Origin: Georhizobium profundi
GTDB taxonomy: Bacteria > Pseudomonadota > Alphaproteobacteria > Rhizobiales > Rhizobiaceae
Direction of reading: 5' to 3'
Assembly (NCBI RefSeq): GCF_003952725.1
Contig: NZ_CP032509.1
Span: forward strand, 3,930,001-3,994,000
DNA length: 64,000 nt
Shown: positions 8,942-42,375 of the stretch, one piece after another
Layout of the letters: every line of letters begins with the position of its first letter
Numbering within the stretch: the stretch's first letter is position 1
Program-made: the position numbers and the translations under genes
The notes under the pieces: model-generated
Databases searched by the model: none
What the model saw: only the letters and a program-made list of their open reading frames with translations
Told to the model about the DNA's origin: nothing

Positions 8942-9379
8942 TCACGCAGCCTTGACGATCTCCACCAGCTCGACCGCGAAGACGAGATCACGGCCGGCCA
9001 GCGGATGGTTGCCGTCCACCGTCACGCTGTCCTCGTCGACTTCGACCACCGTCAGCTGAACGGTTTGGCCACTCTGCGTCTGAGCCTGAAGCTGCGCACC
9101 GGGCTGTATGTTCACTTCCGAGGGGATCGCGTCGCGCGGAACCTGCTGGATGCTCTGCGGATCGTGCGGGCCATAGGCCTGCTCGGCCGGGATCGTGACC
9201 GTCGACTTTTCACCAACCGCCATGCCCTGCACTTCCTGATCGAGACCGGGGATGATCTGGCCAGAACCCACCGTGAATTCCAGCGGATCGCGACCTTCGG
9301 AGCTGTCGAACTGGGTGCCGTCGGTCAGCGTACCCGTGTAGTGGATGCGTACGAGATCGCCGGTTTTTGCCTGTGCCAT
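8942..9379 (-). CDS. FKBP-type peptidyl-prolyl cis-trans isomerase (SlyD-like)
   Basis: 145 residues from the ATG at 9379; a longer open frame upstream has no family similarity. The opening MAQAKTGDLVRIHYTGTLTD with FDSSEGRDPLEFTVGSGQII is the FKBP half, followed by an insert-in-flap region (AYGPHDPQSIQQVPRDAIPS) that places it in the SlyD/FkpA-type subgroup. DGNHPLAGRDLVFAVELVEI closes the fold, as in SlyD. It lacks the His-rich metal-binding tail of E. coli SlyD. It speeds proline isomerisation during folding and is expected in the cytoplasm because there is no signal peptide. Confidence 0.92.
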   Translation of the reverse strand: MAQAKTGDLVRIHYTGTLTDGTQFDSSEGRDPLEFTVGSGQIIPGLDQEVQGMAVGEKSTVTIPAEQAYGPHDPQSIQQVPRDAIPSEVNIQPGAQLQAQTQSGQTVQLTVVEVDEDSVTVDGNHPLAGRDLVFAVELVEIVKAA

Positions 9380-9553
9380 GCGCAGACCTTTCTCTTGCGG
9401 AACGCGGCTCGGGAGATCGCGCTTGAGAACGATCACCGCGTTGTTTCGTGTGAATTCGAACCCACAAGATAGGCATTCATGCGCAGATTGAAACATTTCG
9501 CGCGATAAAATCGGACAACCGGCCGTCATGTACCGCGCAGAATGGGCATTTTC

Positions 9554-9582
9554 GGTCGCCGGCAGCTGGACCGCCGGCGACC
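9554..9582 (-). terminator. GC-rich hairpin after serA
   Basis: A perfect 10-bp inverted repeat (GGTCGCCGGC / GCCGGCGACC) with a nine-base loop, 12 bp past the serA stop. It has no T-run, so it may act as a 3' stabiliser or a Rho-assisted end rather than a classic terminator. Confidence 0.5.
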
Positions 9583-9593
9583 ATGGTTGAAGA

Positions 9594-11189
9594 TCAATCG
9601 ACGTTGAACTGCAGGGCCTTGGCGGACTGAACCTGCGGATGGCTGCGCAGTTCGTCCAGAACGCTCTCGTCCACCGGTCCGTCGACATAGAGAAGCGCAA
9701 TCGCATTGCCGCCGGCGACATCGCGGCCCAGCTGGAAGTTCGCGATGTTGACGCCGGCCTTGCCGAAGATGGTGCCGAGGAGGCCGATGAAGCCCGGCTT
9801 GTCCTCGTTCGTGGTGTAGACCATGTGGCGGCCGATCTCCGCGTCGAGATTGATGCCCTTGATCTGGATGAAACGCGGCTTGCCGTCGGAGAAGACAGTG
9901 CCGGCGATCGAGCGGGTCTGGTTCTCCGTCTTGACGGTGAGACGAATGTAGCCGTCGAAAATGCCCGACTTGTCGCGCTTCACCTCGGAGAAGAGAATGC
10001 CGCGCTCCTTGGCCATGATCGGCGCCGAAACCATGTTGACGTCGGCGACCTGCGCCCGGATCAGACCGGCGAGAACTGCGGACGACAGGGCCTTGGTGTT
10101 GAGTTCGGCCGTGACGCCGTCATAGAGAACCTCGACCTCCTGGATGGAGCTCTCGGTCGCCTGCCCCACAAAGGCACCGAGCATATCGGCGAGCTTGACG
10201 AAAGGCTTGAGGCGCGGTGCTTCTTCCGCCGAGATCGACGGCATGTTGATGGCGTTGGTGACGGCGCCCTTCAGGAGATAATCGGCCATCTGCTCGGCCA
10301 CCTGCAGCGCGACGTTTTCCTGGGCTTCCGTCGTGGAGGCGCCCAGATGCGGCGTGCAGACCACGTTTTCGAGGCCGAAGAGCGGGCTTTCCGTCGCCGG
10401 CTCGGTTTCGAACACATCGAAGCCAGCCCCGGCCACCTTGCCGGATTTCAGCGCTTCGGCGAGATCGGCTTCCACGACGAGACCGCCACGGGCGCAGTTG
10501 ATGATGCGCACGCCGTCCTTCATCTTGGCGATCGCCGCCGCATTGATGATGTTGCGGGTCTTGTCGGTCAGCGGCACGTGCATGGTGATGAAGTCGGCGC
10601 GGGCAAACAGCGTGTCCAGATCGACCTTCTCAACGCCCAGCTGGTCTGCACGCTCGGGCGACAGGAACGGATCGAAGGCGACGACGTGCATCTTGAGGCC
10701 GATGGCGCGGGTCGCGACGATCGAACCAATGTTGCCGCAGCCGATGACACCGAGGGTCTTGCCGGTGATTTCCACGCCCATGAAGCGGTTCTTTTCCCAC
10801 TTGCCGGCTTGGGTGGAAACGTCGGCCGCGGGCAGCTGGCGGGCGACGGCGAACATGAGCGCGATGGCGTGCTCGGCCGTCGTGATCGAATTGCCGAAGG
10901 GCGTGTTCATCACGATGATGCCCTTGCGGCTTGCTGCAGGGATATCGACGTTGTCGACGCCGATGCCGGCGCGTCCGATGACCTTGAGGTTGCCAGCGGC
11001 TTCGATGATCTTTTCGGTCACCTTGGTGGCCGAGCGGATGGCGAGACCATCATAGTTGCCGATGATCTCGAGTAGCTTTTCCTTGTCCTTGCCGAGCTTC
11101 GGCTGGAAATCGACGTCGATGCCCCGATCCTTGAATATCTGGACGGCGGTTTCGGAGAGAGCGTCGGATACGAGTACGCGCGGTGCCAT
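9594..11189 (-). CDS. serA: D-3-phosphoglycerate dehydrogenase
   Basis: 531 residues, the long three-domain form. SerA oxidises 3-phosphoglycerate with NAD+, the first step of serine synthesis. The substrate domain starts MAPRVLVSDALSETA; the NAD domain includes GRAGIGVDNVD (~residues 74-84), GVIGCGNIGSIVA (~147-159) and the catalytic stretch NCARGGLVVEADL (~228-240); CTPHLGASTTEAQ follows near 280. An intervening ASB domain (~310-450) and a C-terminal ACT domain (DKPGFIGLLGTIFGKAGVNI, ~455 onward) complete it, so serine feedback is plausible. It lies 86 bp downstream of serC on the same strand. Confidence 0.97.
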   Translation of the reverse strand: MAPRVLVSDALSETAVQIFKDRGIDVDFQPKLGKDKEKLLEIIGNYDGLAIRSATKVTEKIIEAAGNLKVIGRAGIGVDNVDIPAASRKGIIVMNTPFGNSITTAEHAIALMFAVARQLPAADVSTQAGKWEKNRFMGVEITGKTLGVIGCGNIGSIVATRAIGLKMHVVAFDPFLSPERADQLGVEKVDLDTLFARADFITMHVPLTDKTRNIINAAAIAKMKDGVRIINCARGGLVVEADLAEALKSGKVAGAGFDVFETEPATESPLFGLENVVCTPHLGASTTEAQENVALQVAEQMADYLLKGAVTNAINMPSISAEEAPRLKPFVKLADMLGAFVGQATESSIQEVEVLYDGVTAELNTKALSSAVLAGLIRAQVADVNMVSAPIMAKERGILFSEVKRDKSGIFDGYIRLTVKTENQTRSIAGTVFSDGKPRFIQIKGINLDAEIGRHMVYTTNEDKPGFIGLLGTIFGKAGVNIANFQLGRDVAGGNAIALLYVDGPVDESVLDELRSHPQVQSAKALQFNVD

Positions 11190-11235
11190 GTCTGGCCTCC
11201 TGAAATGATGAACGAATTTTTGGATGTGTGCGGAT

Positions 11236-11261
11236 CGGCCAGCGCTCGGGAACGCTGGCCG
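11236..11261 (-). other. Hairpin in the serC-serA gap
   Basis: Perfect 9-bp inverted repeat CGGCCAGCG / CGCTGGCCG with an eight-base loop in the 86-bp gap between serC and serA. On the minus strand it is followed by an A-rich rather than a T-rich stretch, so it is more likely a processing or stability element in a shared transcript than a terminator. Confidence 0.5.
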
Positions 11262-11275
11262 TATCGATCAAGCGA

Positions 11276-12451
11276 TCAGGCGGCAGCCTTGAGCGTCGCC
11301 TTCTCAGCCTGGAAAGCCCAGTCGAGCCACGGCATCAGCGCTTCGAGATCGGAGGTCTCGACGGTTGCGCCACACCAGATGCGAAGACCGGCCGGCGCAT
11401 CGCGATAGGCGCCGATGTCATAGGCGACGCCCTGCTTGTCGAGAGCGGTGACGATGCCCTTGGCGAAGGCAGCCTGTTCGTCGTCGGAGAGCGCGGTGAC
11501 GTCCGGATCGGCGATCGTCAGGCACACGGAGGTGTTCGACCGGGTCTCGTCGACCTTCGCCAGATTGGCGATCCACGGCGTCTCGGCGACGAAATCGAAG
11601 ATCACCTTGGCGTTTGCGTCGGCGCGCGCCACAAGCGCATCGAGACCACCGAGGGACTTCGCCCATTTCAGCGCATCGACATAGTCCTCGACGCAGAGCA
11701 TCGACGGGGTGTTGATCGTTTCACCCTTGAAGATGCCTTCGATGAGCTTGCCGCCCTTCGTCATGCGGAAGATCTTCGGCAGTGGCCAGGTGGGCTGGTA
11801 GCTCTCGAGCCGTGCGACAGCGCGGGGGCTGAGGATCAAGACGCCGTGACCGCCCTCGCCGCCTAGAACCTTCTGCCAGGAGAAGGTGACGACATCGAGC
11901 TTGGCGAAATCGAGCTTCTGGGCGAATGCCGCGGAGGTCGCGTCGCAGATCGTCAGGCCCTGGCGGTCGGTGGGGATGAAATCGGCGTTCGGCACGCGCA
12001 CGCCAGAGGTCGTGCCGTTCCAGGTGAAGACGACGTCGCGATCGAAATCGATGGACGCCAGATCCGGCAGCTCGCCATAGGCAGCTTCGATCTTGCGGGT
12101 GTCGGCGATCTTCAGCTGCTTGACGGCATCCGTCACCCAGCCGGCGCCGAAGCTTTCCCAGGCGACCATGTCGACACCGCGCTCGCCGAGCAACGACCAC
12201 ATGGCCATTTCGACAGCGCCCGTATCGGAGGCCGGAACGATGCCGATGCGGTAATCGGCCGGCACCTGCAGCACTTCGCGCGTCAGGTCGATCGCCTCGG
12301 CGAGGCGCGTTTTGCCGATCTTGGAACGGTGGGAGCGGCCGAGCGTGTCCGTGGACAACCGGTCCAGCGACCATCCGGGTCGCTTGGCGCAAGGGCCTGA
12401 GGAGAAATTGGGGTTTTGCGGACGCAACTCGGGCGTCGGGAAATTGCTCAT
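11276..12451 (-). CDS. serC: Phosphoserine aminotransferase
   Basis: 391 residues, the alphaproteobacterial length. SerC uses PLP to convert 3-phosphohydroxypyruvate and glutamate to phosphoserine, the second serine step, and also serves pyridoxine synthesis. Signatures: [20 protein letters not shown] near the N-terminus, the PLP-lysine segment [20 protein letters not shown] (~residues 185-205), and [20 protein letters not shown] near the end. It precedes serA and carries a structured leader upstream, so the pair is probably an operon controlled at the serC leader. Confidence 0.96.
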
Positions 12452-12461
12452 CGCGGTCTAT

Positions 12462-12540
12462 CCTTCCAGATAGTAAGCCTCTCGGTGGGGAGAGGTGGCC
12501 CGCGACGGGAATTACTGCAGAGCGCATCACTCTGCAAGAG
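12462..12540 (-). promoter_or_regulatory. Structured serC leader (serC RNA motif candidate)
   Basis: On the minus strand the serC 5' region can form three successive stems: GCAGAG/CTCTGC, CCCG/CGGG, and CCTCTC/GAGAGG (six-base loop), with the last ending about 30 bases before the ATG. A conserved 'serC' leader RNA has been described upstream of serC in alphaproteobacteria. The location and paired-hairpin layout fit, but I could not compare it with the family model. Confidence 0.5.
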
Positions 12541-12552
12541 GCCGCTAAAAAG

Positions 12553-12586
12553 AAAAGCCGCCGCTCCAGGGAGAGCGACGGCTTTT
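12553..12586 (-). terminator. Terminator of the small secreted protein operon
   Basis: Arms AAAAGCCG and CGGCTTTT flank an inner CGCTC/GAGCG pairing. It lies 30 bp past the stop at 12616 of the first small secreted protein gene. The T-run after the stem is short. Confidence 0.65.
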
Positions 12587-12615
12587 GGAGGTCAGATGCT
12601 CAGTGACGCCAATGA

Positions 12616-12825
12616 TTACTGGCGGACGACCGGACCCGAGAAGTCGTTGAAGCGGGCTTCATCCGTTGCATAGCTTGCCGGTGCGTTCATCGTCACGACG
12701 CCAGAAGCGGCATTGTAGTCGTTTGCAACCGGGCCGCGGAAATCGGAGATCGAGGTCTGGGCGGCTGCGACCGTGGCGGTGGTTGCGACGATGGCGGCTG
12801 CGAGTGCGAGTACAGAGTTCTTCAT
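12616..12825 (-). CDS. Tiny secreted protein, tandem paralogue 1
   Basis: 69 residues from the ATG at 12825, which has AAGGAT upstream. A signal peptide (MKNSVLALAAAIVATTATVAAA) should be cleaved before QTSISDFRGP, leaving ~47 residues. The mature part holds two related segments, SDFRGPV near the start and NDFSGPVVRQ at the very end. I recognise no described family. It is the last of three genes of identical length (69 codons) read in the same direction, with gaps of 83 and 86 bp, and is followed by a hairpin terminator. There are no cysteines, so no disulfides. Likely periplasmic or secreted; function unknown. Confidence 0.8.
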   Translation of the reverse strand: MKNSVLALAAAIVATTATVAAAQTSISDFRGPVANDYNAASGVVTMNAPASYATDEARFNDFSGPVVRQ

Positions 12826-12859
12826 GTTCAAGATCCTTATGTTTTTGGTCACCACGCCA

Positions 12860-12886
12860 GTGACGGGGAGATACTCAACCCGTCAC
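12860..12886 (-). other. Intergenic hairpin between paralogues 1 and 2
   Basis: Perfect 8-bp inverted repeat GTGACGGG / CCCGTCAC with an 11-base loop and no T-run, in the 83-bp gap. It could protect or process a shared mRNA. Confidence 0.55.
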
Positions 12887-12908
12887 GGCCATGAGGGAAG
12901 TTCGACGA

Positions 12909-13118
12909 TTACTGGCGGACGACCGGGCCGGAGAAGTCGTTGAAGCGACCTTCATCGGACATGATCGAGGCAGGAGCATCCATGCCGATGGCGCCCGAAG
13001 AGGTGGTGTAATCATTGGCGAGCGGGCCACGGAACTCAGAAATCGGGGTCTGAGCGGCAGCAACCGTTGCGGTCGTTGCGATGATGGCGGCGGCAAGTGC
13101 AAACACAGAGTTTTTCAT
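12909..13118 (-). CDS. Tiny secreted protein, tandem paralogue 2
   Basis: 69 residues. The signal peptide MKNSVFALAAAIIATTATVA is nearly identical to that of paralogue 1, followed by AQTPISEFRGPLANDY, a variable Ser/Ala/Met middle, and the same last 11 residues, FNDFSGPVVRQ. An AAGGAAAA ribosome-binding site lies just upstream. The middle (TTSSGAIGMDAPASIMSDEG) is where the paralogues differ, so the two ends are the conserved functional parts. No known domain; function unknown. Confidence 0.8.
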   Translation of the reverse strand: MKNSVFALAAAIIATTATVAAAQTPISEFRGPLANDYTTSSGAIGMDAPASIMSDEGRFNDFSGPVVRQ

Positions 13119-13149
13119 GATCGTTTTCCTTTTTTCTTACGTTTGTTCA

Positions 13150-13183
13150 CTCGGCAGAGGACGGTTCATCGCCCGCCGCCGAG
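13150..13183 (-). other. Intergenic hairpin between paralogues 2 and 3
   Basis: Inverted repeat CTCGGC / GCCGAG with a GC-rich 22-base loop, in the 86-bp gap. It occupies the same relative place as the hairpin between paralogues 1 and 2 but differs in sequence. Confidence 0.4.
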
Positions 13184-13204
13184 AGATCCTTCTGATTGGT
13201 CGCC

Positions 13205-13414
13205 TTACTGACGGACGACAGGACCAGAGAAGTCGTTGAAGCGGTTTTCGCTACCGAAGGTGCCGTAAGCACCATCGACGCTTGGGCCAGCCGAGTAGGT
13301 TGTGGCATCAGCACCTACGGGTCCACGGAACTCGGAGATTGGCGTCTGAGCAACGGCGACCGATGCAGAAGCTGCAATGACGGCGGCGGCAAGTGCAAAC
13401 ACAGAATTTTTCAT
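13205..13414 (-). CDS. Tiny secreted protein, tandem paralogue 3
   Basis: 69 residues, first gene of the probable three-gene unit. The signal peptide MKNSVFALAAAVIAASASVA is followed by AQTPISEFRGPVGADATTYS and the shared end RFNDFSGPVVRQ. The middle is Gly/Ser/Tyr-rich and differs from paralogues 1 and 2. A GAAAGG ribosome-binding site precedes the ATG. A 17-bp element found again upstream of paralogue 4 lies 120 bp before this start (separate entry). Function unknown. Confidence 0.8.
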   Translation of the reverse strand: MKNSVFALAAAVIAASASVAVAQTPISEFRGPVGADATTYSAGPSVDGAYGTFGSENRFNDFSGPVVRQ

Positions 13415-13533
13415 TTTAGTGGCCTTTCTATTCTTCTTCTTTGATCAGTGAGCGTAACAGAGGGCTCAAAGCTTTTGCCCTGCTCCATGACTGTAACTTG
13501 GTGCGCCTCTGGGAGGATTGTCAGTGCGCAAAC

Positions 13534-13550
13534 TGTGAACGCTGTGTGAC
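13534..13550 (-). promoter_or_regulatory. 17-bp repeated upstream element, copy A
   Basis: TGTGAACGCTGTGTGAC on the + strand, identical to copy B at 13915. It lies 120-136 bp upstream of the ATG of paralogue 3. It contains TGTGA twice as a direct repeat with starts 11 bp apart, the one-helical-turn spacing used by OmpR/PhoB-type regulators. It is a candidate operator; the regulator is unknown. Confidence 0.6.
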
Positions 13551-13592
13551 GACTTTCTTTTGAAACTTTTTCGAGAGCGCGATGTGAGCCAG

Positions 13593-13805
13593 TCAGCGAC
13601 CGACCGCACCGGACGTGTGATAGAAGCGCGGCGCATCGTTGAAATTGCCGTAGTCGGCTTCCATCCGGGTTGGCGCGGCATAACTTGCGTGATTGTCGGC
13701 AAACGTCCCGCGCGGGGCGCACAGCAGGCCCTCAGCGGATGCGGACTGGTGGTAAAGGGTGGCTGCCAGCAAAGCCGCGACAACCGCAAACACAGAATTC
13801 TTCAT
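13593..13805 (-). CDS. Tiny secreted protein, diverged paralogue 4
   Basis: 70 residues from the ATG at 13805 (AAGGA upstream). It shares the start MKNSVFAVVAALLAAT with paralogues 1-3, and weaker echoes of their mature part: APRGTFADNHASYAAP in the middle and RFYHTSGAVGR at the end. The first mature motif contains one cysteine, unlike the others. It has its own copy of the 17-bp upstream element, so it is probably a separate transcription unit. Function unknown. Confidence 0.72.
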   Translation of the reverse strand: MKNSVFAVVAALLAATLYHQSASAEGLLCAPRGTFADNHASYAAPTRMEADYGNFNDAPRFYHTSGAVGR

Positions 13806-13914
13806 GAAGATGGTCCTTGGAATTTTCTTGTTTTTGACAGGCATGCGCGCCGAGGCGCTGCTCGCTGTTGGCGACCATGTGGTTTGTGGCAGGCTCGGTC
13901 GGAAGAGCCGATAT

Positions 13915-13931
13915 TGTGAACGCTGTGTGAC
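13915..13931 (-). promoter_or_regulatory. 17-bp repeated upstream element, copy B
   Basis: Second exact copy of TGTGAACGCTGTGTGAC, 110-126 bp upstream of the ATG of paralogue 4, nearly the same distance as copy A from paralogue 3. Flanking bases do not match beyond a few positions, so the conserved block stands out from background. Confidence 0.6.
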
Positions 13932-14045
13932 AGCGCTCATGAAAACAATCGCGTGATCGCGCTTTCGAAGACGTGAGGCGAGACACCTTGCCTTGCAGGC
14001 AACGAACGCGCAAAAAGCGCGGTGAGAAGCACAGGGAGCAGCCAT

Positions 14046-14273
14046 ATGCGGCCATCATTCTTACCCCGGCTCGCCGGGCTCATCGTTCTGACAGGTCTTG
14101 CAGCCGGCTGCAGCAGCGGTGGCGGCTATGCCGGCTACACCGAATATCGTGTTGCCCCCGTCAAGACGGAGCTCGAGATCCGCCAAGAGCAGGCAGAAGC
14201 GCGGCAGCGCAGCAGTACGAACCGTGGACGTATCGTCGACACGGGCGGGACTGGAATTCTTTTCGGCAAGTAA
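14046..14273 (+). CDS. Small lipoprotein of unknown function
   Basis: 75 residues from the ATG at 14046, preceded by AGGGAG; an upstream ATG at 14022 is less well placed. The signal peptide ends in a clear lipobox, LTGLAAGC, so the cysteine should be lipidated, followed by Ser-Ser-Gly-Gly-Gly, which favours the outer membrane. The mature part is short and charged (VKTELEIRQEQAEARQRSS) and ends GRIVDTGGTGILFGK. No known family. It is followed by a strong terminator and converges on the first Omp25-like gene. Confidence 0.8.
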   Translation: MRPSFLPRLAGLIVLTGLAAGCSSGGGYAGYTEYRVAPVKTELEIRQEQAEARQRSSTNRGRIVDTGGTGILFGK

Positions 14274-14302
14274 GCGTTACCTGGCCCACCAAGCCAATAA
14301 AA

Positions 14303-14336
14303 AAGGCGGCTGAGGTATCCTCGCCGCCTTTCTGTT
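14303..14336. terminator. Hairpin terminator between lipoprotein and omp genes
   Basis: Stem AAAGGCGGC-GAGG / CCTC-GCCGCCTTT with a small loop, then TCTGTTT on the + strand. It serves the lipoprotein gene and probably also the converging omp gene. Confidence 0.8.
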
Positions 14337-14352
14337 TAATGCGTGGGTCCGA

Positions 14353-15051
14353 CTACCAGAGAGAGTAGCGCAGACCTGCGCGAACTTCGTGACGCGTGAA
14401 CCCATCGTCGTCGAGGGTCCCCGCAAGCGTATCGACCACGGCGCCCCCATCGACATCCATATAGCGATAGCCGAAATCGACCTTCAGGCTTTTCGAGACG
14501 TCGTAGGACACGCCGGCCATCAGGGCGTAGGTGAAGCGCCAGTCGTCTCCGCCGCCGAAGCGGGCAAGGCCAACGTCCACGTCGTCGAAGCCAGCATAGG
14601 TGTAGCCGGCGCCGGCGCCGACGTAAGGCGTGAAGCCGGCGATTGTGCCTAGGTCAACATAGGCGTTGGCCAGCAGCGCAAAGGCATCGTAGCCGCAGGG
14701 CTGAGCGACGTTGCAGAAGCCACCGGCCACCACACCTTCGGCATCACCCTTCATGTAGTCCGCCGTCAGATCGGTGCGGATAAGATCGGTCCACTGATAC
14801 CCGACGCCCAACCCGCCGGATACTTCTGACTTCATGCGGAAACTGTCGAAATCGCCATTGCCGGTCTCATCGTCAACCGCATAGCCGATGTCGCCACGCA
14901 AGTACCAGCCGTTGCCGATTTCGACAGGGCGGGTGCGATCGATTTCCGGGGAATAGATGATCCTGTCCAGATCGGCTGCCGCGCTCGTACCGGAAAAACC
15001 AGCGATCACCGCTGCGGATACGACCAGAGAAGAGATGATGTGCTTGACCAT
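14353..15051 (-). CDS. Omp25/31-type outer-membrane protein A
   Basis: 232 residues from the ATG at 15051. Signal peptide MVKHIISSLVVSAAVIAGFSG ends at an Ala-Ala-Ala-Asp site. The mature part is a small beta-barrel: alternating strands such as NGWYLRGDIGYAVDD, SGGLGVGYQWTDLIRTDLTA, FTPYVGAGAGYTYAG and FGYRYMDVDGGA, ending in the outer-membrane signature RAGLRYSLW with terminal aromatic Trp. This is the Omp25/Omp31/porin-like family of Rhizobiales. Two cysteines (CNVAQPC) lie in one loop and could form a disulfide. A perfect CtrA-type box lies ~90 bp upstream. Confidence 0.9.
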   Translation of the reverse strand: MVKHIISSLVVSAAVIAGFSGTSAAADLDRIIYSPEIDRTRPVEIGNGWYLRGDIGYAVDDETGNGDFDSFRMKSEVSGGLGVGYQWTDLIRTDLTADYMKGDAEGVVAGGFCNVAQPCGYDAFALLANAYVDLGTIAGFTPYVGAGAGYTYAGFDDVDVGLARFGGGDDWRFTYALMAGVSYDVSKSLKVDFGYRYMDVDGGAVVDTLAGTLDDDGFTRHEVRAGLRYSLW

Positions 15052-15121
15052 GGATTGCCTCTCAAAATAGCCGCTCACAGGAAAGCCGGTGGCCTTTGCC
15101 GGTCTCGGGCTTGATGGTGCA

Positions 15122-15154
15122 ATCATGAGTGGAGAGTGGTTAAGTCCCGGTTAA
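15122..15154 (-). promoter_or_regulatory. CtrA-type box and putative -10 for omp A
   Basis: On the minus strand TTAA-N7-TTAA (TTAACCGGGACTTAA, 15140-15154) is perfect. After a 12-base gap comes CATGAT (15122-15127), about 70 bp before the ATG. The second omp gene has the same order (box, CC, 11-12 bases, CATGAT), so this is probably a shared promoter design. CtrA is the alphaproteobacterial cell-cycle regulator. Confidence 0.65.
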
Positions 15155-15205
15155 GCATGTTCATTAAGTATGTTTTTTAACCGCCAGGGCTTGTGAGCGG
15201 ACAGC

Positions 15206-15235
15206 AAAAACCCCGCCTCGGTGCGAGACGGGGTT
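15206..15235 (-). terminator. Terminator of omp B
   Basis: On the minus strand: AACCCCGTCTCG, a three-base loop, CGAGGCGGGG and TTTTT. It starts 33 bp past the stop at 15269. Stem and T-run are both good. Confidence 0.85.
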
Positions 15236-15268
15236 TGATTGTGCCCTGCCCTGACAGCAGTGATCGGA

Positions 15269-16060
15269 TCAGTGGAATGCGTAACGGACGCCGACCTTGA
15301 AGTCATGCGAGCTGATGTCGCGGAATTCCATCGGGTTGACGATGTTGTTCGTGCCATCGAAGGTCGTGATGTCGCCGCTCTGGCCATCACCCAGATGGAC
15401 ATAGGAATAGCCGAAATCGACCGTCAGCTGGTCGGTGACTTCATAGCCGACACCGGCGTGCAGCGCCCAGGCAAGGTCCCACTTGCTGTCGGCATCCGCA
15501 TAGGCGAGCGTGGGCGAACCTGTTGCCGGGTCGATGCCAGCGTCGCGGAAGGAGTGGATCGAGTTGCGCGAAGCACCGATACCGGCTCCGACGTAAGGCA
15601 CGATGCCGTTGAAGTTGCCGAGATCGGCGTAGAGGTTGGCGAGGAACAGCCACTCCGACTTCTTGGCTGTGTAGTTGTTGAACCGGGCATTGCCTCCAGC
15701 GTCGGTGAAGGTATCGAGGCCGTGGAAGCCTGCCTCGCCGCGATATTCGGCCGTTGCGTCGAGACGCAGCCAGTTGTTGACGGCATACCCGACGCCGCCA
15801 CCACCCAGTACACCGGCTTCGAAGTTCTTGTCGCGGATGACGAGATCGGCGGTCGTATCGAAGAGCACGTTGTAGAGCGAGCCAACGCGCTGGTTGCTCA
15901 TTCCCAGATAACCCTTGAGGTAGAACCCGCCGAGTTCGATCTTGGGAGCCGGTTCATAGACCGGCGGTACATAGATATCGGCCGCCTGCGCAGGCAGGCT
16001 GACGCCGGCAAACAAAGTTACGACCGCGGTCGCCGTTGCCCATCGCAGCATTTTGTCCAT
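15269..16060 (-). CDS. Omp25/31-type outer-membrane protein B
   Basis: 263 residues. Signal peptide MDKMLRWATATAVVTLFAGV ending PAQAADIYVPP, then a beta-barrel of the same class as its neighbour: GGFYLKGYLGMSN, GGGGVGYAVNNWLRLDATAE, IVPYVGAGIGASR, WALHAGVGYEVTDQLTVDFG and the terminal HDFKVGVRYAFH (last residue His after the aromatic, slightly unusual for a barrel end). It was probably duplicated with gene A and then diverged strongly. Its upstream region has a perfect TTAA-N7-TTAA box and it has its own terminator, so it is monocistronic. Confidence 0.9.
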   Translation of the reverse strand: MDKMLRWATATAVVTLFAGVSLPAQAADIYVPPVYEPAPKIELGGFYLKGYLGMSNQRVGSLYNVLFDTTADLVIRDKNFEAGVLGGGGVGYAVNNWLRLDATAEYRGEAGFHGLDTFTDAGGNARFNNYTAKKSEWLFLANLYADLGNFNGIVPYVGAGIGASRNSIHSFRDAGIDPATGSPTLAYADADSKWDLAWALHAGVGYEVTDQLTVDFGYSYVHLGDGQSGDITTFDGTNNIVNPMEFRDISSHDFKVGVRYAFH

Positions 16061-16104
16061 CCTTCACAAATAAACCGGCACGGCCGGTCGCTGTCTCGGA
16101 ATGG

Positions 16105-16136
16105 ATCATGATTTCGAATGGTTAAATTGGATTTAA
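16105..16136 (-). promoter_or_regulatory. CtrA-type box and putative -10 for omp B
   Basis: On the minus strand TTAAATCCAATTTAA (16122-16136) is a perfect TTAA-N7-TTAA site, followed by CC, nine more bases and CATGAT (16105-16110), 45 bp before the ATG. The match in layout with the omp A promoter region makes chance less likely. Confidence 0.65.
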
Positions 16137-16252
16137 CCACGTCTGTTTACCAGGATTATTATCAGTTTTCTCACCATGACAAAGACAAGACCCCCGACCT
16201 GGAATGGATCGAGGGCCTTGAGCAATTCGATGCTTGATTGATCGTTAAGAAG

Positions 16253-17605
16253 TTAGGCGGCCTGCCGCACACCTGCAATGACCCCGACGAGATCATCGAC
16301 GATCTTTTCGATCTGAGCGCGGTCGTCGCCTTCCGCCATCACCCGGATCAGGGGTTCGGTGCCGGACGCACGGATGACGAGCCGGCCGGAATTGTCGAGC
16401 GCCGCCGTGGCATCGGCGATCGCCTCCTGGACGGACTTGTCCTCGAGCGGCTTCCCGCCGGTGACACGTACGTTCCGCAGCAATTGCGGGACGGGCTCGA
16501 AGCGACGGCAGACTTCGCTCACCGGCTTGTTCATGCGCTTGACGCAGGCCAGCACCTGCAGCGCGGCGACGAGTCCATCCCCGGTCGTTGCAAAATCTGA
16601 CAGCACGATATGGCCGGACTGCTCGCCGCCGACGTTGAAATTGTGGCTGCGCATATGCTCGACCACGTAGCGATCCCCCACCTTGGTGCGCTGGAGCGAC
16701 AGGCCCTTGTCACCGAGGAAGCGCTCCAGGCCGAGGTTCGACATGACGGTGGCAACGACGCCGCCGCCGACGAGTCGCTCATCGGCTGCCCAGGATTCGG
16801 CGATCACGGCCATCAGCTGGTCGCCATCCACCACCGTGCCGTTCTCGTCGACGATCAGCACGCGGTCTGCGTCACCATCGAGCGCAATGCCGATATCGGC
16901 ACGAACTTCGTGAACTTTCTTGGCGAGCGCCACCGGGCTTGTCGACCCGCAATCGAGATTGATGTTGCGGCCATTGGGTTCGACGCCGAGCGGCACGACT
17001 TCGGCGCCCAGTTCCCAAAGTGCTGCCGGTGCCACCTTGTAGGCTGCACCATTGGCGCAATCGATCGCAATGCGCAGCCCGTTCAGGGTGACGTCGCGCG
17101 GCAGTGTGCGCTTCACGAACTCGATGTAGCGATAGATGTCGCCATCGACGCGCTTGGCCCGTCCGATCTTGTCGGCTGGTGCCAGCAGCTTCGCCATGTC
17201 GTCGTCGATCAGGCTTTCGATCGTCGCCTCGACATCGTCGGACAGCTTGTAGCCGTCCGGGCCGAAGAGTTTTATCCCGTTGTCCTGATAGGGATTGTGC
17301 GAGGCGGAGATCATCACACCGATGTCGCAGCGCATCGAGCGGGTCAGCATCGCGACGGCAGGCGTCGGGATCGGACCAAGCAAGAAGACATCGAGCCCGG
17401 CCGCCGTGAAGCCCGCGACCAGCGCGTTTTCCAGCATGTAGCCCGACAGGCGCGTATCCTTGCCGATCACTACCCGATGCCGATGGTCGCCACGGCGAAA
17501 CAGCGTGCCAACGGCCAGACCGACACGCATAGCGACGTCGGGTGTCATGTTGCCGGTGTTGGAGGTGCCCCTGATGCCATCGGTGCCAAAGTAACGACGC
17601 GTCAT
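16253..17605 (-). CDS. glmM: Phosphoglucosamine mutase
   Basis: 450 residues from the ATG at 17605 ([13 protein letters not shown]). GlmM turns glucosamine-6-P into glucosamine-1-P, for peptidoglycan and lipopolysaccharide precursors. Visible features: the opening [11 protein letters not shown], the phosphoserine loop [18 protein letters not shown] near residue 100, the metal-binding loop [13 protein letters not shown] near 240, GGEQSGHIV near 325, and [15 protein letters not shown] near the C-terminus. Length is normal. It is the last gene of the envelope cluster, 178 bp after ftsH, with a terminator in between, so it likely has its own promoter. Confidence 0.97.
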
Positions 17606-17718
17606 GAATGTCCCGCTTTTTCTAAAATACCGCTTCACGAACCCGGAGTGAGTGCTTGGTGACGGCTCTTCGCATCAGATTATGCGCAGTTATGGTCATA
17701 ATAGGTTGATTGAAGTCA

Positions 17719-17744
17719 AAAGGCCGCCCATGAGGGCGGCCTTT
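17719..17744 (-). terminator. Terminator of ftsH
   Basis: Perfect 11-bp stem AAAGGCCGCCC / GGGCGGCCTTT with a four-base loop, 39 bp past the ftsH stop on the minus strand, ending in TTTTGA. Confidence 0.85.
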
Positions 17745-17782
17745 CCACAGTTGTGGTAAAAGAAGTCAGGCAGCGAACGCCG

Positions 17783-19714
<1,932 letters not shown>

Positions 19715-42119: not shown

Positions 42120-42147
42120 AGCAACGTCAGTGCTGGAAAAGAAAAGT

Positions 42148-42300
42148 GCGATCCACGGCGACCGATGGAGTTTTACGATCCCGGGTACCTACAAAGTAGG
42201 TGGGTGCCGTATAACCGAACCCACGGGTCCAGTCAGGGACAGCTCCCTTGGATCGCGTATGGCCCCGGGGAATGTTGTTCCTGTCGAGAAGCGCAGACCG
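42148..42300 (-). ncRNA. ssrS: 6S RNA (candidate)
   Basis: The region between zapA and the cyclo-ligase gene is the usual place of 6S RNA in alphaproteobacteria. On the minus strand GCGATCC (42250-42256) pairs perfectly with GGATCGC (42148-42154). The enclosed sequence has GTGGGT/ACCCAC and CCTAC/GTAGG hairpins flanked by unpaired stretches, an extended rod with a central bubble. TATATT about 10 bp before 42300 could be the -10. Exact ends are uncertain: the closing stem alone gives ~109 nt, while starting near 42300 gives ~150 nt, the usual length. 6S RNA binds the sigma-70 holoenzyme. Confidence 0.62.
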
Positions 42301-42375
42301 CATGCTCAATATATGTCGAGCCGGTGCCTTTAGCCAGTGGCTCTCACCATCGCGAGCTCACATAAATATCCCGCC

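Follow-up and report, generated by a model that had tools for sequence, protein, structure and literature searches.

Genomes often contain small exported proteins confined to one lineage, and it is rare for the anatomy of one to hint at how it works. The locus upstream of serC in Georhizobium profundi raises the question of whether the four small genes that lie there are such a case and, if they are, which mode of action their anatomy points to. The genes were studied in a stretch of 64,000 nucleotides, referred to here as the window, whose positions are used throughout. As a preliminary description of the locus stated, they are adjacent, lie between 12616 and 13805, and encode proteins of 69-70 residues with signal peptides at the N-end. 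All four are on the minus strand. Genes A (12616-12825), B (12909-13118) and C (13205-13414) encode 69 residues each, and gene D (13593-13805), a diverged member with one Cys in its mature part, encodes 70. Signal peptides were called by eye and by a simple rule, not by a dedicated predictor, and cleavage was assumed to occur after AxA and before Q. The presumed mature parts are then 46-47 residues long (Q23-Q69, 47 residues, in A).

Identity to A falls from 77% in B to 57% in C and 35% in D. The signal peptides, described earlier as near-identical, are so in A, B and C but not in D, which differs after the start MKNSVFA that it has in common with B and C. The C-end said to be shared by three of the proteins is indeed shared by A, B and C, although it is 12 identical residues long (RFNDFSGPVVRQ) rather than 11. 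D ends in RFYHTSGAVGR. Aligned with the others, it retains the MKNS start, one RG, one RF and one SG, along with the overall length. Is this enough to make D a relative? An alignment of 11 A/B/C-type rows that contains no D matches the D copies of three genomes with E values of 1.5e-8, 7.6e-8 and 3.2e-6. D is therefore a true member of the family, related beyond a shared signal peptide.

It is clear that A-D are real genes kept by purifying selection. The same four, in the same order, are found upstream of serC in all three genomes of the genus that the searches returned (G000, G001 and G002). In each of the 12 orthologue comparisons among these genomes, those of B and those of A with G001 and G002 included, full-gene dN/dS lies within 0.00-0.24. 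Copy number, which the preliminary description proposed to compare between strains, is constant at four in 3/3 genomes. High expression was considered as well and rejected. Codon adaptation pooled over the array is 0.64 against a window median of 0.60, and among 50 window ORFs 5 score above A, 13 above B, 35 above C and 22 above D. This is ordinary, so very high expression of the array is not indicated.

A feature that suggests a way of working is found at the ends of the mature proteins. Close to the mature N-end, A, B and C carry the motif IS[DE]FRGP[VL], which is similar to FNDFSGPV at the C-end. In A these are ISDFRGPV (residues 26-33; 12727-12750) and FNDFSGPV (residues 59-66; 12628-12651), in B ISEFRGPL (13020-13043) and FNDFSGPV (12921-12944), and in C ISEFRGPV (13316-13339) and FNDFSGPV (13217-13240), all on the minus strand. 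The motifs are eight residues each and start 33 residues apart in all three proteins. Indeed, the best ungapped eight-residue self-match of mature A, B and C pairs residues 26-33 with 59-66, and a match as good arises in 0/2000 shuffles of A, 30/2000 of B and 13/2000 of C. These statistics are suggestive rather than proof, because the test was post hoc and the paralogues share ancestry. D does not have this likeness, and its best self-match is not above shuffles (242/2000 as good).

Both end motifs are present in 13/13 distinct A/B/C-type mature sequences. A search of both strands of the 4.36 Mb genome with a DNA pattern for [DE]FxGPV gave six matches, five of them in the array, compared with four for a backward control. 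EFRGPL in B, the remaining motif of the array, falls outside this pattern. The only match elsewhere, at 790736, was judged by eye to be a probable chance match. Taken at the level of sequence, A, B and C look bivalent, with a similar motif at each end. The preliminary description suggested one binding end. The conserved C-end bears this out, but the mature N-end is also conserved and C-end-like in A-C, so that one binding end becomes two similar ends.

What lies between the ends was described as a diversifying centre, in which positive selection was to be looked for. To the extent that the middles of A, B and C are more variable than the ends, this is correct. With A, B and C taken together, omega is 0.00-0.06 for the signal peptide, 0.06-0.11 for the N-block (residues 23-33), 0.11, 0.15 and 0.14 for the middle (34-57) in the three genome pairs, and 0 for the C-tail (58-69), all from small counts and as an informal regional contrast. 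The highest single value for a middle is 0.48 (A, G000-G001), which rests on 5 differences. The middle is thus faster but constrained, and a diversifying or positively selected centre was rejected on these values. The C-tail has 0 replacement versus 3-7 silent differences in each of the three genome pairs. One could imagine that recent gene conversion keeps the tail identical. However, in each of the three genomes its Ser is encoded by TCG in A, by TCC in B and by TCT in C. The codon tracks the paralogue and not the genome, which rules out such conversion and means that the tail has been kept identical by selection ever since an old duplication. Gene D reverses the pattern. Its middle is its most conserved part (omega 0.00-0.07), whereas the ends reach 0.22-0.56 and the signal peptide up to 0.68 (G000-G001).

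What could be done with two similar ends and a spacer that varies? The reading preferred here, offered tentatively and with more doubt than confidence, is that these are flexible exported two-ended peptides that bridge envelope sites under an OmpR/PhoB-type regulator. The Sec pathway would export A-D and signal peptidase would cut between AxA and Q. Outside the cytoplasm the proteins would act as flexible two-ended linkers, each end motif binding the same kind of site, be it an outer-membrane protein, a polysaccharide or another copy. One molecule could thereby bridge two sites, and the three paralogues would vary in the spacer while keeping both ends.

The same anatomy is also what might be expected of precursors of short secreted signalling peptides, from which a protease would free both motifs as signals and the middle would be a discarded spacer. 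Conserved short blocks do flank a faster-evolving spacer, and both blocks are alike within one precursor. Moreover, the mature N-terminal residue is Gln in 13/13 distinct A/B/C-type sequences. An N-terminal Gln can turn into pyroglutamate, so it could do so here. However, the spacer is under purifying selection and nearly fixed in length, as the mature sizes indicate, which counts against this reading. By eye, the flanking ORFs (9000-18000) showed neither a dedicated exporter nor a receptor; two of them were run against Pfam together with a small lipoprotein. Signal precursors are therefore an unlikely explanation.

A third possibility is a self-assembling matrix or surface-layer subunit whose ends would join head to tail into fibres. 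This is consistent with two similar ends per chain, and mature A-C are small, acidic and devoid of lysine. In fact lysine is absent from all 840 residues of 18 distinct mature sequences, compared with 4.5% (195/4326) in ten window ORFs, although this was noticed after the fact. Were the N-terminal Gln cyclised, mature A, B and C would carry no primary amine. Against a fibre, the repeat is limited to two copies, codon adaptation is ordinary, and no curli-type secretion genes were recognised by eye among the flanking ORFs. A matrix role thus seems somewhat less probable than even a signalling one.

The flexibility that linkers would need is in keeping with structure prediction. AlphaFold2 gave mean pLDDT values of 61 (A) and 52 (D); the mature part has no confident fold, and the models contain no strands. 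The mature parts are likely to be disordered, although low pLDDT may instead reflect the shallow alignments of close sequences that were used (11 rows for A, five for D).

Does the family have relatives whose function might decide the matter? The preliminary description had recognised none, and the searches of family libraries, protein collections and genomes agree. A profile search of 297 Rhizobiaceae genomes matched only three, all from one of 109 genera, the family's own, and a class-wide search of 385 genomes matched only that of the window; both searches scored, for each genome, only the best 20 or 15 candidates from a first look. In a collection of about 5.8 billion proteins the A-D profile found 11 entries at E 0.01 and the D profile four at E 0.1, and Rhizobium sp. 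EC-SD404 is the one organism that these entries name. By ANI and AAI, EC-SD404 groups with Georhizobium profundi (PMC11708043), which makes the genus of the three genomes probably Georhizobium.

Weak matches do occur more widely, in 14 of 40 genomes outside the genus (E 0.0027-0.097). Two of them contain stops and 13 overlap the signal-peptide part, leaving one (G033, positions 27-65) in the mature part. Nine of the 14 genomes had no match at E 0.001 in the search of 297. Perhaps a diverged homologue precedes serC in other genera. serC was located in 25/27 genomes outside the genus, and full 1500-base upstream regions were available at 24 of these loci, the 25th (L064) having only about 60 bases. 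Signal-peptide ORFs of 40-130 aa occur at seven of the 24 loci, and none is array-like by eye. The same scan within the genus recovers 4/4, 4/4 and 3/4 array genes, the one missed being a D that sits further off, and the idea of a diverged homologue at these loci was rejected. An origin on a plasmid or phage was also rejected, as gene C used as a query gave no tblastn match in plasmid and phage records. Judged in this way, the family is genus-restricted, with no convincing relative outside the genus in the collections searched. The literature within reach on Georhizobium, Rhizobium album/albus, EC-SD404, Metarhizobium and small secreted rhizobial orphan paralogues, a coverage that leaves out most subscription journals, has nothing on this family in its titles and the openings of its abstracts.

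Family libraries bear on a further alternative, raised in the preliminary description, that small paralogues with signal peptides are secreted toxins or bacteriocins with immunity partners. No family match for A-D was found in Pfam, NCBIfam, PHROGs or PADLOC, the last two of which leave a toxin/immunity role without support. Within the array no candidate immunity gene was seen by eye, the number and order of copies are the same in 3/3 genomes and there is no sign of positive selection. Toxins are accordingly a very improbable answer. In PDB sequences the A/B/C profile had no match either.

Some known families resemble the array more closely. DUF680 (PF05079), which we take to comprise small exported, lineage-restricted paralogues of Mesorhizobium, matched neither A-D nor the 11-row alignment in Pfam. 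YjbE (PF11106, exopolysaccharide production protein) gave a weak match to gene C over residues 1-54 (E 0.032). Membership was rejected, since the 14.9 bits obtained are below the curated cut-off of 27.9 and the other 10 rows of the 11-row alignment have no match at E 0.1. Nor does C match anything in Pfam at E 1 when its mature part is used by itself. A ClpS-adapter model for gene D was likewise dismissed as sub-threshold (E 0.17, 11.9 bits versus a cut-off of 158).

Two further groups are of interest as possible analogues. The first is DUF1471/YhcN/BhsA-McbA of enterobacteria, which is similar in having several small paralogues per genome. Roles in stress response and biofilm are reported for DUF1471 paralogues, and the domain folds as alpha+beta (PMC4092069). 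In contrast to this defined fold, the array models are of low confidence and without strands, from shallow alignments, and A-C carry a similar motif at both ends. Nor did DUF1471 match A-D (E up to 1) or the 11-row alignment (E up to 0.1) in Pfam. The second group is found in Sinorhizobium meliloti, also one of the Rhizobiaceae. In one cluster of 16 genes with lasting acid induction, nine encode proteins with signal peptides, and the hypothetical ones include smb21440 and smc01580 (PMC2651895). ChvI binding has been detected upstream of both (PMC3687685). Acid- and ChvI-induced proteins of this kind in S. meliloti are also dealt with in PMC10659215. The likeness is thus one of hypothetical signal-peptide proteins under an OmpR-family response regulator. 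The array differs in having no relative outside its genus among the 297 Rhizobiaceae genomes searched and no exact ChvI motif in its box.

What if the array proteins, like these analogues, are simply stress-induced small periplasmic proteins? The dose of exported protein would then protect or remodel the envelope, and the likeness of the ends would have no two-site role. This is nearly as likely as the linker proposal, close behind it and just as provisional. The array proteins are small, paralogous and equipped with signal peptides, and a common upstream box would allow for joint control; what is reported of DUF1471 paralogues, the acid-induced cluster and ChvI binding may be taken by analogy to point the same way. 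However, no Pfam match exceeds its cut-off, with just that of gene C to YjbE at E up to 0.1, and the absence of a confident fold contrasts with the alpha+beta domains of DUF1471.

The linker proposal includes a regulator, which brings the upstream region into focus. The same 17-base box, GTCACACAGCGTTCACA, is found upstream of both C (13534-13550, minus strand, starting 136 bases ahead of the ATG) and D (13915-13931, minus strand, 126 bases ahead). It is a TCACA-N6-TCACA direct repeat with an 11-base period. The two copies agree at 17/17 positions, whereas their 40-base flanks agree at only 10/40 and 18/40. Two matches within three mismatches of the box occurred in 0/100 shuffles of the window, and the pair is also present before C and D in G001 and G002. 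A direct repeat with an 11-base period is the layout of OmpR/PhoB-family sites. The box also resembles the Pho box, presumably CTGTCAT-N4-CTGTCAT, which makes that another candidate. ChvI was considered with motifs taken from PMC9731502. Neither GCC-N8-GCC (Sinorhizobium) nor TTGC-N3-GCAA (Caulobacter) occurs in exact form, on either strand, in the 186 bases upstream of C, the 240 bases upstream of D or the gaps between C, B and A. CenR is a further possibility, as the box holds TCA-N8-TCA, the reverse complement of the TGA-N8-TGA direct repeat defined in Rhodobacter sphaeroides (PMC9275681), although that motif has only six fixed bases and comes from that species.

The box does not seem to define a regulon beyond the locus. 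Apart from the two boxes, TGTCACANNNNNTTCACA at one mismatch or fewer is absent from G001 and G002 and occurs at one other site in G000. Loose matches (two mismatches) number 12 versus 21 for a backward control in G000, 13 versus 15 in G001 and 16 versus 12 in G002. A genome-wide regulon was therefore rejected, loose matches being not above the control in two genomes and slightly above it in the third. A putative lipoprotein of 75 residues (LAAGCSS), without a match at E 1 in Pfam or NCBIfam, is encoded by a divergent gene at 14046-14273 (plus strand). Because D and this gene have a common upstream region, the D box might serve both.

The layout read from the DNA is that D has its own box, C-B-A have the second copy and a terminator-like hairpin follows A. 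C-B-A would be one transcript, with C presumably its first gene. The C-B gap is 86 bases and the B-A gap 83 bases, each with a predicted hairpin. That between C and B (13147-13186, minus strand) has a z score of -2.2, with 5/200 shuffles folding as well. That between B and A (12860-12886, minus strand; GTGACGGG/CCCGTCAC) is weak, the whole gap scoring -1.45 with 19/200 shuffles as good. The hairpin downstream of A (12553-12586, minus strand) has 15 pairs, a T-rich tail and a z score of -2.9. The case for a terminator depends on stem length and conservation in G001 and G002, because a pattern scan gave a single terminator-like site, fewer than the mean of 2.5 for shuffled sequence. A scan for sigma-70 promoters found none. 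The serC leader (Rfam RF00517, 60.7 bits) is at 12453-12505 on the minus strand, between this hairpin and serC and outside the array. Since it starts past the hairpin, the array and serC look like separate units. In G002 about 150 extra bases, absent from the other two genomes, lie between gene D and the C box.

With two units and two boxes, the last step of the linker proposal would be that an OmpR/PhoB-type response regulator reads the 17-base direct repeat and switches both units together. The reason to prefer this proposal is that it accounts for the two conserved similar ends, the three spacer variants and the shared box. What it fails to account for is D, which has no repeat and a selection pattern opposite to that of A-C. 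Also counted against it are the lack of an exact ChvI match, the finding that loose box matches are not commoner than the control in G000, the result of the sigma-70 and terminator scans, and the ordinary codon adaptation. A wider formulation, which seems slightly more doubtful again than either leading reading, is that these are genus-specific bivalent, unfolded, lysine-free exported peptides, either tethers of varied spacer between envelope sites or double-copy precursors of peptide signals, with a response-regulator box private to the locus. Two conserved ends, three natural spacer variants and a two-copy box make for a compact, testable case, and one that bears on the origin of a new exported protein family and its regulatory wiring within one genus.

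Two outer-membrane beta-barrel proteins (PF13505) are encoded nearby, at 14353-15126 and 15269-16060 on the minus strand, and might be envelope partners of the array. Elsewhere in the window, 6S RNA (Rfam RF00013, 76.9 bits) is found at 42146-42302, also on the minus strand.
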